Shown: positions 28,196-32,667 of the stretch, one piece after another | Layout of the letters: every line of letters begins with the position of its first letter | Numbering within the stretch: position 1 is the stretch's first letter | Assembly: GCA_016874735.1 (NCBI GenBank) | Contig: VGTI01000013.1 | Span: 1 to 64,000 of the forward strand | Reading direction: 5' to 3' | DNA: 64,000 nucleotides | Source: Deltaproteobacteria bacterium | GTDB lineage: Bacteria; Bdellovibrionota_B; Oligoflexia; Oligoflexales; CAIYRB01 | The notes under the pieces: model-generated | Databases searched by the model: none | What the model was told of the DNA's origin: nothing | What the model saw: only the letters and a program-made list of their open reading frames with translations | Position numbers and translations under genes: made by a program

Positions 28196-28911
28196 TTAGT
28201 TGCGGGTGCTTCTCGATACCTTGCGGCCGTTCAAGGCCTGTACTGGACGGGCATTGAAGGGTATTGAATGTGAGAATTGCGCCAACTGCCGGTCCGACAG
28301 CGGCAGAGGGTCGGTCATCACGTACCAATGGACGCCCTCGGTACACGGAGGGTGTGTAAGGGATCCCTCGTACTGATAGTATTTGCGCCGCTGCGGTAGG
28401 AGTTTCGTCGGATCAAGTGCAATTGGTTCCGAGGCATCATCCCCTGGCGCTGGGATACTCGACCAGATGTTCGTTAGAAAGGGATTTGTTGCTTCTCGCT
28501 CCATAAAAACTGCTAAGATCAGGATCTGGCCCTCCAGACTTTTATGAGTTAGCTGTATTTCCATATCGTATGGAGCTCCTACGATCTTGTGCTCGCTAGG
28601 TGCGTGGAAAACAATGGTGTCGAGATCGTAACGATCGCCGTCCACTTCTATGTAGTTGCCACTTTGAGTTCTCAATACAAGCTGGCCAGCATAGTTGGTG
28701 ACGATATTGTCACTGTCCCTGTAGTGAAAGCGGATTGGCAGGAGTTTTGAATTTGCTACCGGTCCATCGATATCAATCGGAGACTGACGGCGGCCGCGCG
28801 AGCAATTTTCGAACCGGCTACTTAGAGATCCCCAGCCGGTAGGTCCGGTACTACCTTGGTAGTTCCAGCGCGGGTCTGCTGTTTCATCGATGTGTGCCGT
28901 GTTTTTTTTTT
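28196..28911 (-). pseudogene. Alpha-carbonic-anhydrase-like domain, out of frame with its N-terminus and lacking two zinc ligands
   Basis: This frame encodes WNYQGSTGPTGWGSLSSRFE, RRQSPIDIDG, FHAPSEHKIVGAPYDMEIQL, SLTHPPCTEGVHWYVM and NARPVQALNGRKV, an almost complete alpha-carbonic anhydrase domain. It has no start codon of its own before an in-frame stop near 28911. It continues the His-rich gene at 28884-29423 if one base is lost from, or two are added to, the run of ten A (coding strand, 28902-28911). The zinc ligands are altered. The first His of QFHFH is Val (IVFH), the second is kept, and the His of the third site is Gln (MEIQL). Catalysis is therefore unlikely even if expressed. A binding role is possible. 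Confidence 0.7.
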
Positions 28912-29423
28912 AACTCGGGCTTGCTTGCCTTTGGCGGAGAGTGCTTCGTTCCATGATCCCCGTGTCCGCCATGATCACTATGCACTGCTTTGGTAGCCTC
29001 GTGTTCTACGGGTTTCTCATGATGCGAATCGTCATGGGTTTCGTGATCTTTGTGAGGCTCGTGCGTGTCTGCCGTATGCGGTTCATGACCGTGATCCGGG
29101 TCTTGGTGTGCATCGTGATGCGCGGCGCTATCATGCTTGTCTTCGTGCGAAGATTTGTCATGGTCCGCAGATTCTCCATGGCCCGTATCCTCATGGTGAG
29201 CACTTTCACCATGCTCGTCAGTGGTGGCGTGGTGCCCTTTTCCGTGATCGGAGTCACCATGGGAACTGCCGTGAGGCGTATCAGCAATTTCTTCATCGTC
29301 ATGGCCGTGTGCAGAGCCACCAGCAACTTTCACAACCCCGTATCCGACTCCGTAGGTGGCACCAGCAGCTGCACAAGCTATGATCCAGGCTAAAATTTGA
29401 TCCATACCTTTCTTCATTGCCAT
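28884..29423 (-). CDS. Exported His-rich protein, N-terminal part of the carbonic-anhydrase-like gene
   Basis: The start at 29423 has AGGAGG upstream. Residues 8-35 form a signal or anchor helix (QILAWIIACAAAGATYGVGY). Residues 36-165 hold more than 30 His among Asp, Glu, Ser and Gly (DHGHEPHTADTHEPHKDHET), a likely low-specificity zinc, nickel or copper binding stretch. The frame ends soon after a run of Lys encoded by ten A and stops at 28884, inside the carbonic-anhydrase-like frame. With a one-base change the joint protein would be about 408 residues: export signal, His-rich linker, anhydrase fold. Confidence 0.7.
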   Translation of the reverse strand: MAMKKGMDQILAWIIACAAAGATYGVGYGVVKVAGGSAHGHDDEEIADTPHGSSHGDSDHGKGHHATTDEHGESAHHEDTGHGESADHDKSSHEDKHDSAAHHDAHQDPDHGHEPHTADTHEPHKDHETHDDSHHEKPVEHEATKAVHSDHGGHGDHGTKHSPPKASKPELKKKHGTHR

Positions 29424-29628: not shown

Positions 29629-30423
29629 ATGAGCAAATTTGTTGGCAAGAGGATTTGGATCACCGGAGCATCGTCAGGAATCGGTGAGGCGTTGGCCCTC
29701 AGGTTAGACGAACTAGGCGCCAGTTTAATTCTGTCGTCTAGGGACAGCGAGAAGCTCAATGGGGTACTGAACTCGTGCAAGAATCCGGAGCGTCACAAAA
29801 TCCTTTTACTTGATTTAGAGAAATATCCAGAACTTCCGAAAATCGCAGAGGACGCTTGGCGAAATTATGGGCCTATTGATATTTTGGTAAACAATGCGGG
29901 AATATCACAACGTTATCTGGTGTGTGATGGGAACATAGATCTCGATGCCAAAATCATGAATGTAAATTTTTTCGGCACGATTGCTTTGACGAGACCTATC
30001 TTGCGAAAAATGTTGGAAGTAAACTCAGGCCAAGTGGCTGTTGTTTCAAGCGTCCTAGGTTTGTTCGGTATTCAATCTCGAAGTGCATACAGTGCCAGTA
30101 AACACGCACTGCGTGGATATTTCGAAAGTCTTAGGAACGAAATTGCAAAATCACCCGTGAAAATAACGATGATATATCCTGGGTACGTCAAGACAAATGT
30201 TTCTCGAAACGCTTTAACAGCAGATGGAGGTAGTTACGGCGTTGTTGACAAACAGCACAATAATGCGATGTCCGCGATGCAGTGCGCGGAAGAAATTATT
30301 ATAGCACTTGGGCAGAAAAAGCCGGACGTCGTTTTCGGTGGTCGGCTGGAGATGCTCAGCGTTGCAGTAGCTAAATACATGCCGAGAATTTTCAGGACTT
30401 TGTCAACACGGATTAATGTTTAG
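29629..30423 (+). CDS. Short-chain dehydrogenase/reductase (SDR)
   Basis: This 264-aa classical SDR has the nucleotide-binding motif WITGASSGIGEALALRL at residues 10-26, DILVNNAGISQRY, the catalytic Ser in VVSSVLGLFG and Tyr/Lys in SAYSASKHALRGYF, then YPGYVKTNVS. The closest pattern is the DHRS7-like group, acting on ketone or alcohol groups of lipids or steroids with NAD(P). Base composition is more AT-rich than in flanking genes. The gene is enclosed, together with a transposase, between two short inverted-repeat elements, suggesting acquisition by transfer. Its last 21 bases overlap the end of the convergent transposase gene. Confidence 0.85.
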   Translation: MSKFVGKRIWITGASSGIGEALALRLDELGASLILSSRDSEKLNGVLNSCKNPERHKILLLDLEKYPELPKIAEDAWRNYGPIDILVNNAGISQRYLVCDGNIDLDAKIMNVNFFGTIALTRPILRKMLEVNSGQVAVVSSVLGLFGIQSRSAYSASKHALRGYFESLRNEIAKSPVKITMIYPGYVKTNVSRNALTADGGSYGVVDKQHNNAMSAMQCAEEIIIALGQKKPDVVFGGRLEMLSVAVAKYMPRIFRTLSTRINV

Positions 30424-31344
30424 GTCAGCACTGCGCAAGCGAGAAACGTTGGGCATGGAGCATGATTTTTTGATGCTCATCAACTGTTTATTGTGCCACC
30501 ATGCATACAACGAAACTAAGTCTGCGAGTCTCTCTTTTCGTTTTGTGGTAGTCCACGTACGACGAGCTAAACGCTTAATCCGATCTCTGAACATGGCGCA
30601 GGTGTGGTTGAGCGCAAAAATAGGATCGTGACGCCCTCGCTTAAGTTCTCCTTGCCCGATTGATCTGCTTCTTCGCCCTTTGAATACTTTATGGCTCACA
30701 TTGTCACCGAAAACCAGTTTGACGCAGCGCGGATATCTTGAGCATTTGTCGGATTTCAGCACTTGGACATGGGGGCAAAGACGCCTGACTTCACTGAGTA
30801 CGCGAATCATACACTCTTTTCGTTGATCTGGACGGTAGCCGTATTTTTTTCGGGAAATTTTCGACAATTTTCCTGGACATGGCATGACAGCAACACTTGC
30901 CGCAATAATTAGTCGGGATCTTTCATCTACAGCGACAGCAATGGAAAGCGGCTTGCACTTACTGTGTTCAAAAGTTTCCATTTCGTCGAACTGCACTGTT
31001 GAAATTGGCGTTGATGCCTTATTGATCTCGGTGCTCGAAGTTGCTGCGGTCTCGCTCTGCGCTTGCCTACCGAGTCTGACCATTTTTCGTGCTACGGTTA
31101 TCGGGGAGCATTTCAGATGTCTGGCAATTCCTCGTTGAGAAACTCCCTCCATCAAGAGGCGCAGTACGCTTTGTGTGAGGTGAGGCTTGCGCTCACGATA
31201 AGTGAGCGTGGATGTCTGGTTTGAGAATTTCGAGCCGCAGACGCGACACAAGTATCTTTGGATAACTTTAATGCGACCGGTTTTTCTTTGGTAAAGACCG
31301 CAGCGCACCACCGATCGCGTATTGTCCCCACACTTTGGACACAT
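30403..31344 (-). CDS. IS1-like DDE transposase
   Basis: Start chosen at MCPKCGDNTRSVVRCG (31344), because GAGGAG precedes it. A longer frame to 31416 lacks this. The 313-aa protein has an InsA-like zinc ribbon (CPKCG ... RYLCRVCGSKF), a helix-turn-helix (GVSQRGIARHLKCSPITVAR), then catalytic-core segments VQFDEMETFEH, VLKSDKCSRYP and FRDRIKRLARRTWTTTKRKE, resembling IS1 InsB but fused in one frame. It lies immediately inside the inverted-repeat element at 31423-31570, whose ends it may recognise. IS boundaries of its own were not found. Confidence 0.7.
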   Translation of the reverse strand: MCPKCGDNTRSVVRCGLYQRKTGRIKVIQRYLCRVCGSKFSNQTSTLTYRERKPHLTQSVLRLLMEGVSQRGIARHLKCSPITVARKMVRLGRQAQSETAATSSTEINKASTPISTVQFDEMETFEHSKCKPLSIAVAVDERSRLIIAASVAVMPCPGKLSKISRKKYGYRPDQRKECMIRVLSEVRRLCPHVQVLKSDKCSRYPRCVKLVFGDNVSHKVFKGRRSRSIGQGELKRGRHDPIFALNHTCAMFRDRIKRLARRTWTTTKRKERLADLVSLYAWWHNKQLMSIKKSCSMPNVSRLRSADLNINPC

Positions 31345-31422
31345 AGTGGCTCCTCGTAACAGGAGCTGTAAAACTGCCACATCAAAAGAGTCATGTGAAA
31401 AGACATCAATGGACATCCACTA

Positions 31423-31572: not shown

Positions 31573-32667
31573 TTAGCGGGCGAGCCACAACTGATTGTTG
31601 TAGTTATGGTGGAGACTAACCGCAGCTCTCATGGACTGAATGCGGCGTTCGGCGACGACATCGGATGCCTTGTGCGTTGGCAGGCCTTGTCGCTCGGATT
31701 CTGCAAATACCTCAAGTAGCGTATTGTATATATTACCTGCCTGACGCTTGGCGGCATCCGCATTGTAACCCTTTAGCTCATGAAATACGTTTATCACGCC
31801 TCCAGCGTTAATAACGTAGTCGGGAGCATAAAGAATACCTTTCTCCCTCAACTGCTGGCCGTGGCGTGATTCATTGGCAAGCTGATTGTTGGCGCCACCC
31901 GCAACTATCGGAGCTTTAATTTCTGGTATTGTCCTGTCGTTGAGCACTGCTCCAAGGGCACAAGGGGCAAATACATCTACGTCGGCTGTATGAATAGCCT
32001 TCACGTCGGAAACTTTGGCACCGTAACGTTCCGCCATGCTCCGAACGCGCGCTTCGTCTATATCAGCCACAACAAGTTGAGCTCCGGCCGCGTGCAAATA
32101 GCCACAGAGATAGCGACCCACGGCTCCGGCCCCCTGAACAGCCACTCTGAGACCGTGCAAATTGTCTCTACGTAGTTTGTGCTCCACGCAGGCCCGAATT
32201 CCGTGGAATACGCCTAACGCAGTGACCGGTGACGGATCACCCGATCCATCACGGTTGGCAAGCCCGCTAACGTAGCGGGTCTCCATAGCAACATAATCCA
32301 TATCCTGAGTATTAATATTCACGTCTTCAGCTGTGATATACCGGCCGCCCAAATTGTTTATGAATCTTCCAAAGGTACGGAAAAGGGCTTCTGATTTGAC
32401 CGTCTTGGGGTCACCTATGATCACAGCTTTACCGCCGCCCAGGTTAAGTCCCGCGACAGCGTTTTTGTATGTCATTCCCCGAGACAAACGTAAAACGTCC
32501 GTCAGCGCTTCTTCGTCAGATTCGTAGTTCCAAAGACGACACCCGCCCAACGCTGGTCCAAGCGTGGTATCATGGATGGCGATAATGGCGCGAAGACCCG
32601 TCGCCTTGTCCTGCACGAACACGACCTGCTCGTGGCCCATGTCGCCTACTTGGTCAAACATTCCCAT
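31573..32667 (-). CDS. Leucine dehydrogenase (Glu/Leu/Phe/Val dehydrogenase family)
   Basis: This 364-aa protein oxidatively deaminates branched-chain amino acids with NAD. Substrate-domain motifs are LGPALGGCRLWNYESDEEAL and MTYKNAVAGLNLGGGKAVII, containing the catalytic Lys region, then TAEDVNINTQDMDYV. The Rossmann domain has VAVQGAGAVGRYLCGYLHAA and ADIDEARV. Length and motifs are those of leucine dehydrogenase rather than the longer glutamate enzyme. The stop codon lies two bases from a short inverted-repeat element. ilvE at the end of this window is a functional relative. Confidence 0.9.
   Translation of the reverse strand: MGMFDQVGDMGHEQVVFVQDKATGLRAIIAIHDTTLGPALGGCRLWNYESDEEALTDVLRLSRGMTYKNAVAGLNLGGGKAVIIGDPKTVKSEALFRTFGRFINNLGGRYITAEDVNINTQDMDYVAMETRYVSGLANRDGSGDPSPVTALGVFHGIRACVEHKLRRDNLHGLRVAVQGAGAVGRYLCGYLHAAGAQLVVADIDEARVRSMAERYGAKVSDVKAIHTADVDVFAPCALGAVLNDRTIPEIKAPIVAGGANNQLANESRHGQQLREKGILYAPDYVINAGGVINVFHELKGYNADAAKRQAGNIYNTLLEVFAESERQGLPTHKASDVVAERRIQSMRAAVSLHHNYNNQLWLAR

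Follow-up and report, generated by a model that had tools for sequence, protein, structure and literature searches.

Introduction

To our knowledge, few cellular genes use transcriptional slippage on purpose; in mxiE of Shigella the run on which the polymerase slips is one of T. Among the systems closest to the locus considered here, tssM1 of Citrobacter rodentium carries an A11 tract, its mRNAs are described as containing 10-15 A, and both resulting protein lengths are reported to be needed (PMC4256274). As in tssM1 and in tssM of Yersinia pseudotuberculosis, our locus is predicted to encode a membrane-anchored envelope protein whose C-terminal domain lies out of frame past a poly-A tract, and its default product would likewise be the short one, the full length being described for tssM as the outcome of slippage (PMC4256274). 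It differs in that the protein is another one, a His-rich linker precedes the tract and a zinc-less carbonic anhydrase (CA) domain follows it, and a shift of -1 or +2 is needed; moreover, slippage is reported as shown in tssM1 (PMC4256274), whereas here it is predicted from sequence.

Poly-A slippage is also described as giving two lengths of one protein from dnaX (A9) of Thermus thermophilus (PMC1088944, PMC3711429). With full length as its default, dnaX resembles a second gene of the genus studied here, the CpoB-like gene treated below, whereas the default of the CA gene would be short. In mxiE, as presumably in the CA gene, slippage joins two ORFs into a longer protein (as described in PMC1088944), but the product of mxiE is a transcription activator and that of the CA gene an envelope protein. 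More generally, selection against slippage is reported to become visible in many bacteria once a run reaches nine, and Baranov and colleagues describe 'pseudo pseudogenes' that slippage rescues (PMC1088944).

On the protein side, the CA-related proteins VIII, X and XI are described as having the alpha-CA fold without all the zinc histidines (PMC2873310), as does the domain considered here; these are vertebrate proteins and no orthology is claimed, ours being bacterial, anchored and His-rich. The alpha-CAs of Thermovibrio (4c3t) and Persephonella (6im0) share family and fold with it (E down to 1.4e-49 by sequence), whereas two of the three zinc ligands are missing from ours.

Results and Discussion

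Architecture of the split gene

The window is the whole 64,000-nucleotide stretch that we analyzed (GCA_016874735.1, contig VGTI01000013.1, positions 1 to 64,000), from a genome of 4.65 Mb in 166 contigs, hereafter G000. On its plus strand a T10 run at 28902-28911 reads as A10 in a minus-strand gene, where it separates a TM-anchored His-rich ORF from a CA domain in a different frame; the frame change at a run of ten that the earlier note had claimed is borne out by the ORFs. The upstream, 0-frame ORF (29423-28884, minus strand; 179 aa) begins with its start codon and an N-terminal membrane anchor (MAMKKGMDQILAWIIACAAAGATYGVGYGVVKVAGG; 29316-29423, minus strand, the TM segment being read by eye), similar to one in the congener G005. 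A His-rich linker follows (28912-29315, minus strand), with 34 His and 34 Asp/Glu among the 143 residues from the anchor to the end of the ORF. The ORF ends five residues past the tract, its tail HGTHR and TGA stop occupying 28884-28901 (minus strand), with the TGA at nucleotides 16-18 after the tract. The frame with the CA-like domain is open for 237 codons (28199-28909, minus strand) up to a stop at 28196-28198 on the same strand. When the tract length is varied in silico, nine A give a 408-aa protein with the predicted junction peptide ELKKNTAHIDE and twelve A a 409-aa protein with ELKKKNTAHIDE, in agreement with the one product of 408 residues proposed earlier for these lengths, while eleven A give 200 aa.

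The frame junction is marked, as in slippage genes, by an A/T run of about nine or more, here A10. This is the longest A/T run of the window and one of only two A10 runs in the 4.65-Mb genome. The presence of a run of eight or more A in the window is in itself not improbable (four overlapping matches against 3.08 expected, with 35 of 100 shuffles reaching four); what counts is the place and the conservation of the A10.

The CA domain and its zinc site

The downstream domain (28208-28846, minus strand) matches PF00194 with an E-value of 1.1e-34 (120.7 bits, cut-off 27), its AlphaFold2 model has a pLDDT of 87.6 and a pTM of 0.87, and the best Foldseek match of that model in the PDB is 6eki (TM 0.88/0.93); both profile and predicted structure assign it to the alpha-CA fold. 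Of the zinc ligands, His94, His96 and His119 in the numbering of human CA II, the first is replaced by Val (28610-28612, minus strand), the second is retained (28604-28606, minus strand) and the third is replaced by Gln (28553-28555, minus strand). The congener G004 has Met/His/Gln at these sites, so that neither species has the three zinc histidines of an active alpha-CA, while G001, G002, G003 and G005 retain all of them. The designation "carbonic-anhydrase-like" given earlier therefore holds for the fold but not for the zinc site: judged by its residues the G000 domain is acatalytic, and "anhydrase" here names a fold and not an activity. CO2 hydration need not rest on this gene, because beta-CAs are present in all six congeners examined, with two in G000.

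For a wider view 59 CA domains were compared, 54 from 58 genomes of the phylum and five from named records; searches at the level of the class and of the phylum covered the same 58 genomes. The zinc triad is complete in 28 of these domains and at least one ligand is missing in 31, which counsels caution with "carbonic anhydrase" labels. On a tree that left out four matches (G047, a near-copy of G046, G040, G041:C203 and G041:C187), there are ten changes between intact and lost triads, at least six or seven of them forced by well-supported branches. Across the 59 alpha-CAs of the survey, zinc-ligand loss is a repeated event, mostly His119 to Gln, and membrane anchors, often with His-rich linkers, are common. 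Our search of the literature on His-rich periplasmic CAs and on bacterial acatalytic CAs returned nothing on this gene.

Conservation in the genus and the possibility of error

Six genomes of the genus (G000-G005) were searched for the 18-nt word A10-CACGGCAC, which is present, identically, in G000 and G004. G004 has the same tract length, the same relation between the His-rich and CA frames and the same distance to the 0-frame TGA, with CA domains that are 65% identical; its contig starts within the His-rich part, which places the start codon outside the contig. Site and frame relation are, then, conserved between species, as in slippage genes, in two of the six congeners. The other four encode an in-frame fusion of the His-rich and CA parts that has no tract (the G002 contig likewise starts inside the fusion). 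The local identity of the two sequences is not peculiar to the tract, where the common word of 19 nt is shorter than one of 26 nt at the start of the CA domain.

Indel errors arise most readily in homopolymers, and one could hold that the A10 is really an A9 and that the gene encodes an ordinary fusion, like the tractless in-frame ones of G001, G002, G003 and G005. There is indeed another frame break in the G004 assembly, not at a homopolymer, in the orthologue of a CHASE2 histidine kinase (L040:3360-5347), due to either mutation or assembly error. An erroneous A10 would nevertheless have to be common to two assemblies. We examined all A/T tracts of nine or more in both. Of 32 in G000, a mechanical rule placed 11 in ORFs open on both sides and 17 elsewhere and flagged four as splits; on reading, two more tracts were put in ORFs, and three of the flagged cases, all A9 (L170, L181 and L190), were dismissed, their tracts lying near an ORF start or past a stop. 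The 28 tracts of G004 comprise seven in ORFs, 20 elsewhere and the CA split itself. A conserved gene is broken at such a tract once among 32 in G000 and once among 28 in G004, and gene breaking at homopolymers is not habitual in either assembly. A further long tract, the A10 in the CpoB-like gene, leaves the reading frame intact in five of six species. Since the same A10 and break recur in a second species and other long tracts lie in intact ORFs, we regard a sequencing or assembly error as very improbable.

A second pair of split genes

We found the same arrangement in another family of this order, in one genome from each of two genera: G011 (contig 62) and G022 (contig 42) have a TM-anchored N-terminal part followed by A9 and A10, respectively (L106:1394-1402 for the A9 and L102:1468-1477 for the A10), and then by a CA domain in a different frame. 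They need a shift in the opposite direction from G000 and G004, namely one more A or two fewer. Their zinc ligands are Thr/His/Gln and Arg/His/Gln. All four split CA domains thus fall within the 31 with an incomplete triad, and each is without two of the three ligands. On the CA tree the split requires two changes, forced by well-supported branches and with a bootstrap range of 2-2; by this reconstruction, the split had two origins within the phylum, both at this domain boundary. In the 60 nt that precede the CA domain, a homopolymer of at least nine is confined to the four split genes among those surveyed, and one further gene has an A7.

Three other short CA frames are not counted as splits. 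Two of them, G033:C54 and G017:C232, are without a tract, retain the full zinc triad and resemble copies truncated at the N terminus; the third, G040:C75, contains an ambiguous base within its domain.

Probable translation of the downstream frame

The CA frame is free of stops over 237 codons in G000 and 236 in G004, and its first potential start codon (ATG, GTG or TTG) is codon 79 in G000 and codon 100 in G004, in both cases in the interior of the domain, and translation as a free-standing ORF is rejected for these two species. Such translation is also unlikely in G022, whose TTG at codon 34 again falls within the domain, and is possible in G011, which has an ATG at codon 5 and no export signal. 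Re-initiation at the ATG that overlaps the 0-frame TGA of G000 was likewise rejected, as it opens the third frame and not the CA frame.

Differences between the CA domains of G000 and G004 at codon positions 1, 2 and 3 number 67, 38 and 139 over 222 codons, and those between G011 and G022 number 98, 59 and 150 over 220 codons. In a codon model (our own implementation of the GY94 type, with F3x4 frequencies, on six species and 222 columns without gaps), fixing omega at 1 on the G000 and G004 tips costs 93 log-likelihood units (lnL -3276.86 against -3183.64 with omega free); with synonymous sites saturated, the free estimate of 0.015 is unreliable, while the rejection of omega = 1 stands. On the stem branch, where zinc ligands and frame were lost, selection is indistinguishable from neutral (lnL -3183.38 free, -3184.70 at omega 1). 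Provided that the split is ancestral to G000 and G004, which the inference presupposes, the downstream CA codons of both appear to be under strong purifying selection, the pattern of a slippage gene whose downstream frame has no start of its own. Because the codons are so constrained despite the lack of an early start, the CA frame is probably still translated.

These data also bear on whether the gene is simply decaying, its CA part having become dispensable with the loss of zinc and its frame having then broken at a fragile run of A. That course of events would accord with the absence of two zinc ligands from all four split domains, with an enzymatic function already lost, which makes relaxation plausible, with the beta-CAs of all six congeners and with the neutral-like stem. 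It sits poorly with CA frames that remain open over their whole length, with the strong codon-position asymmetry and the rejection of omega = 1 for the G000 and G004 tips alike, with a break that is identical in G000 and G004 and with a CA fold that is predicted to be intact. We therefore consider decay rather improbable.

A second A10 tract in a CpoB-like gene

The only other A10 of G000 (L217:1938-1947, which is contig 1, 200918-200927) lies in frame between two domains of a gene for a YbgF/CpoB-like lipoprotein with a coiled coil and TPRs; the coiled coil and lipoprotein features were read by eye, and the match to TIGR02795 (52 bits) is below the cut-off of 90.1. The tract is present in all six congeners (orthologues L218-L221 and L223), as A10 in five and as A11 in G002, whose gene it splits, while in G006, from the next genus, the site reads A7. 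The matching stretch of the gene in G014, of another family (L227), apparently the same linker, contains an A9. The six congeners together have 15 runs of ten or more A, six at this site, two at the CA site and seven elsewhere, none of these seven falling well inside a long ORF and one being near an ORF start.

In five species AAG is the commoner lysine codon of the gene (15 to 20, against 9 to 13 AAA, tract included), yet the three lysines of the tract are AAA in every one. When the codons for residues common to G000 and G004 are compared, the longest stretch without a change comprises 19 codons, from -4 to +15 relative to the tract, and a stretch of this length was reached in two of 10,000 permutations. 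Over the codons from -4 to +11, four of the other five pairs tested show a weaker excess (hypergeometric P 0.003 to 0.03) and the G001/G003 pair shows none (P 0.39). One extra A in the G000 tract would end the protein after RQSQDSH. These features make the CpoB-like A10 a separate candidate for slippage. The literature that we searched contained no earlier report of slippage at either the CA or the CpoB-like site, none of that on CpoB, YbgF or Tol-Pal mentions slippage, and we found none on slippage in Oligoflexia; two papers on slippage each name carbonic anhydrase once.

The lengths at the two sites also serve to weigh phase variation, in which slippage during replication would switch the CA part on (A9 or A12) or off (A10 or A11) between cells, the sequenced genomes showing the off state. 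A contingency tract of this kind would suit an envelope-protein gene with a repeat-rich His region, and the same boundary is split in four genomes by either A9 or A10; the single A11 among the six CpoB-like genes could be taken as a further sign of variation. Against this, length appears fixed, with seven of the eight tracts at the two sites of the genus being exactly A10 (both carriers at the CA site and five of six species at the CpoB-like one), both species with the CA-site tract are in the off state, and the anchored His-rich part is still made in that state. On balance phase variation appears unlikely, if worth keeping in mind.

Mechanistic interpretation

Iterated AAA codons are described as slippery for ribosomes as well (PMC4363877), and the AAA-AAA-AAA of the tract could in principle support ribosomal frameshifting. 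However, G000 and G004 would require a shift of +1 or -2 rather than the usual -1, the direction of which is wrong for them; no stimulatory structure follows, RNA folding 3' of the tract yielding nothing significant (z -1.37 and -0.15); and G011 and G022 would need -1 or +2, so that no single ribosomal mechanism fits all four. This makes the explanation barely credible. Polymerase slippage fits both pairs because it allows opposite shifts, unlike any one kind of ribosomal frameshift.

Thus, of the options that the earlier note had left side by side (phase variation, transcriptional slippage or error), slippage is the best supported, through the conserved length and through a downstream frame that has no usable start and yet shows purifying selection, while error is disfavored by the second species and the intact ORFs elsewhere. 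Also in favor of slippage are the predicted retention of the CA fold, the separate split in another family, the lack of significant RNA structure 3' of the tract, the run lengths described above for slippage in other bacteria and the second A10 tract that the genus has kept. We favor, with somewhat better than even confidence, transcriptional slippage on the A10 tract giving two length variants of an inner-membrane-anchored protein with a presumed periplasmic location. RNA polymerase would slip on the tract; mRNAs with ten A would encode the anchored His-rich protein only, and a minority with nine or twelve A would encode the full protein with its C-terminal zinc-less alpha-CA domain, which would be acatalytic and probably serve in binding. 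Each of the two forms would have a use. Slippage at A/T runs in Escherichia coli and Buchnera is described as mostly the insertion of a single base (PMC5574713). Here a single insertion leads to A11 and the 200-aa dead end, and -1 or +2 is needed, so that little full-length protein may be made. Beyond what had been noted for this DNA before, the comparison adds a CA domain that is acatalytic by its sequence, a split that seems to have arisen twice in the phylum and a conserved A10 in a second envelope gene.

Taken together, the two sites suggest a broader and decidedly more tentative proposal, to which we would give about one chance in three: that in this genus A10 tracts between domains are an established way of setting the ratio of anchored N-terminal part to full length in at least two envelope proteins, the zinc-less CA and the YbgF/CpoB-like lipoprotein, and that another family came independently to this solution at the CA boundary, once the CA had become a dose-sensitive binding module. 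Under this proposal the CA gene would be short by default, and the CpoB-like gene long by default and short in the A11 species. Were it true, a slippage site that is shared between species, that recurs independently at one domain boundary and that has a conserved counterpart in the CpoB-like gene would indicate that slippage tracts can be a recurrent device for tuning the stoichiometry of envelope proteins, and caution would be due in annotating such split genes as pseudogenes.

Genomic neighborhood

In the window, genes for a short-chain dehydrogenase and an IS1-like transposase (29629-31416) lie between the CA gene and a ScyB/leucine-dehydrogenase-like gene (31573-32667). The latter adjoins the CA gene in G005, G003 and G001.
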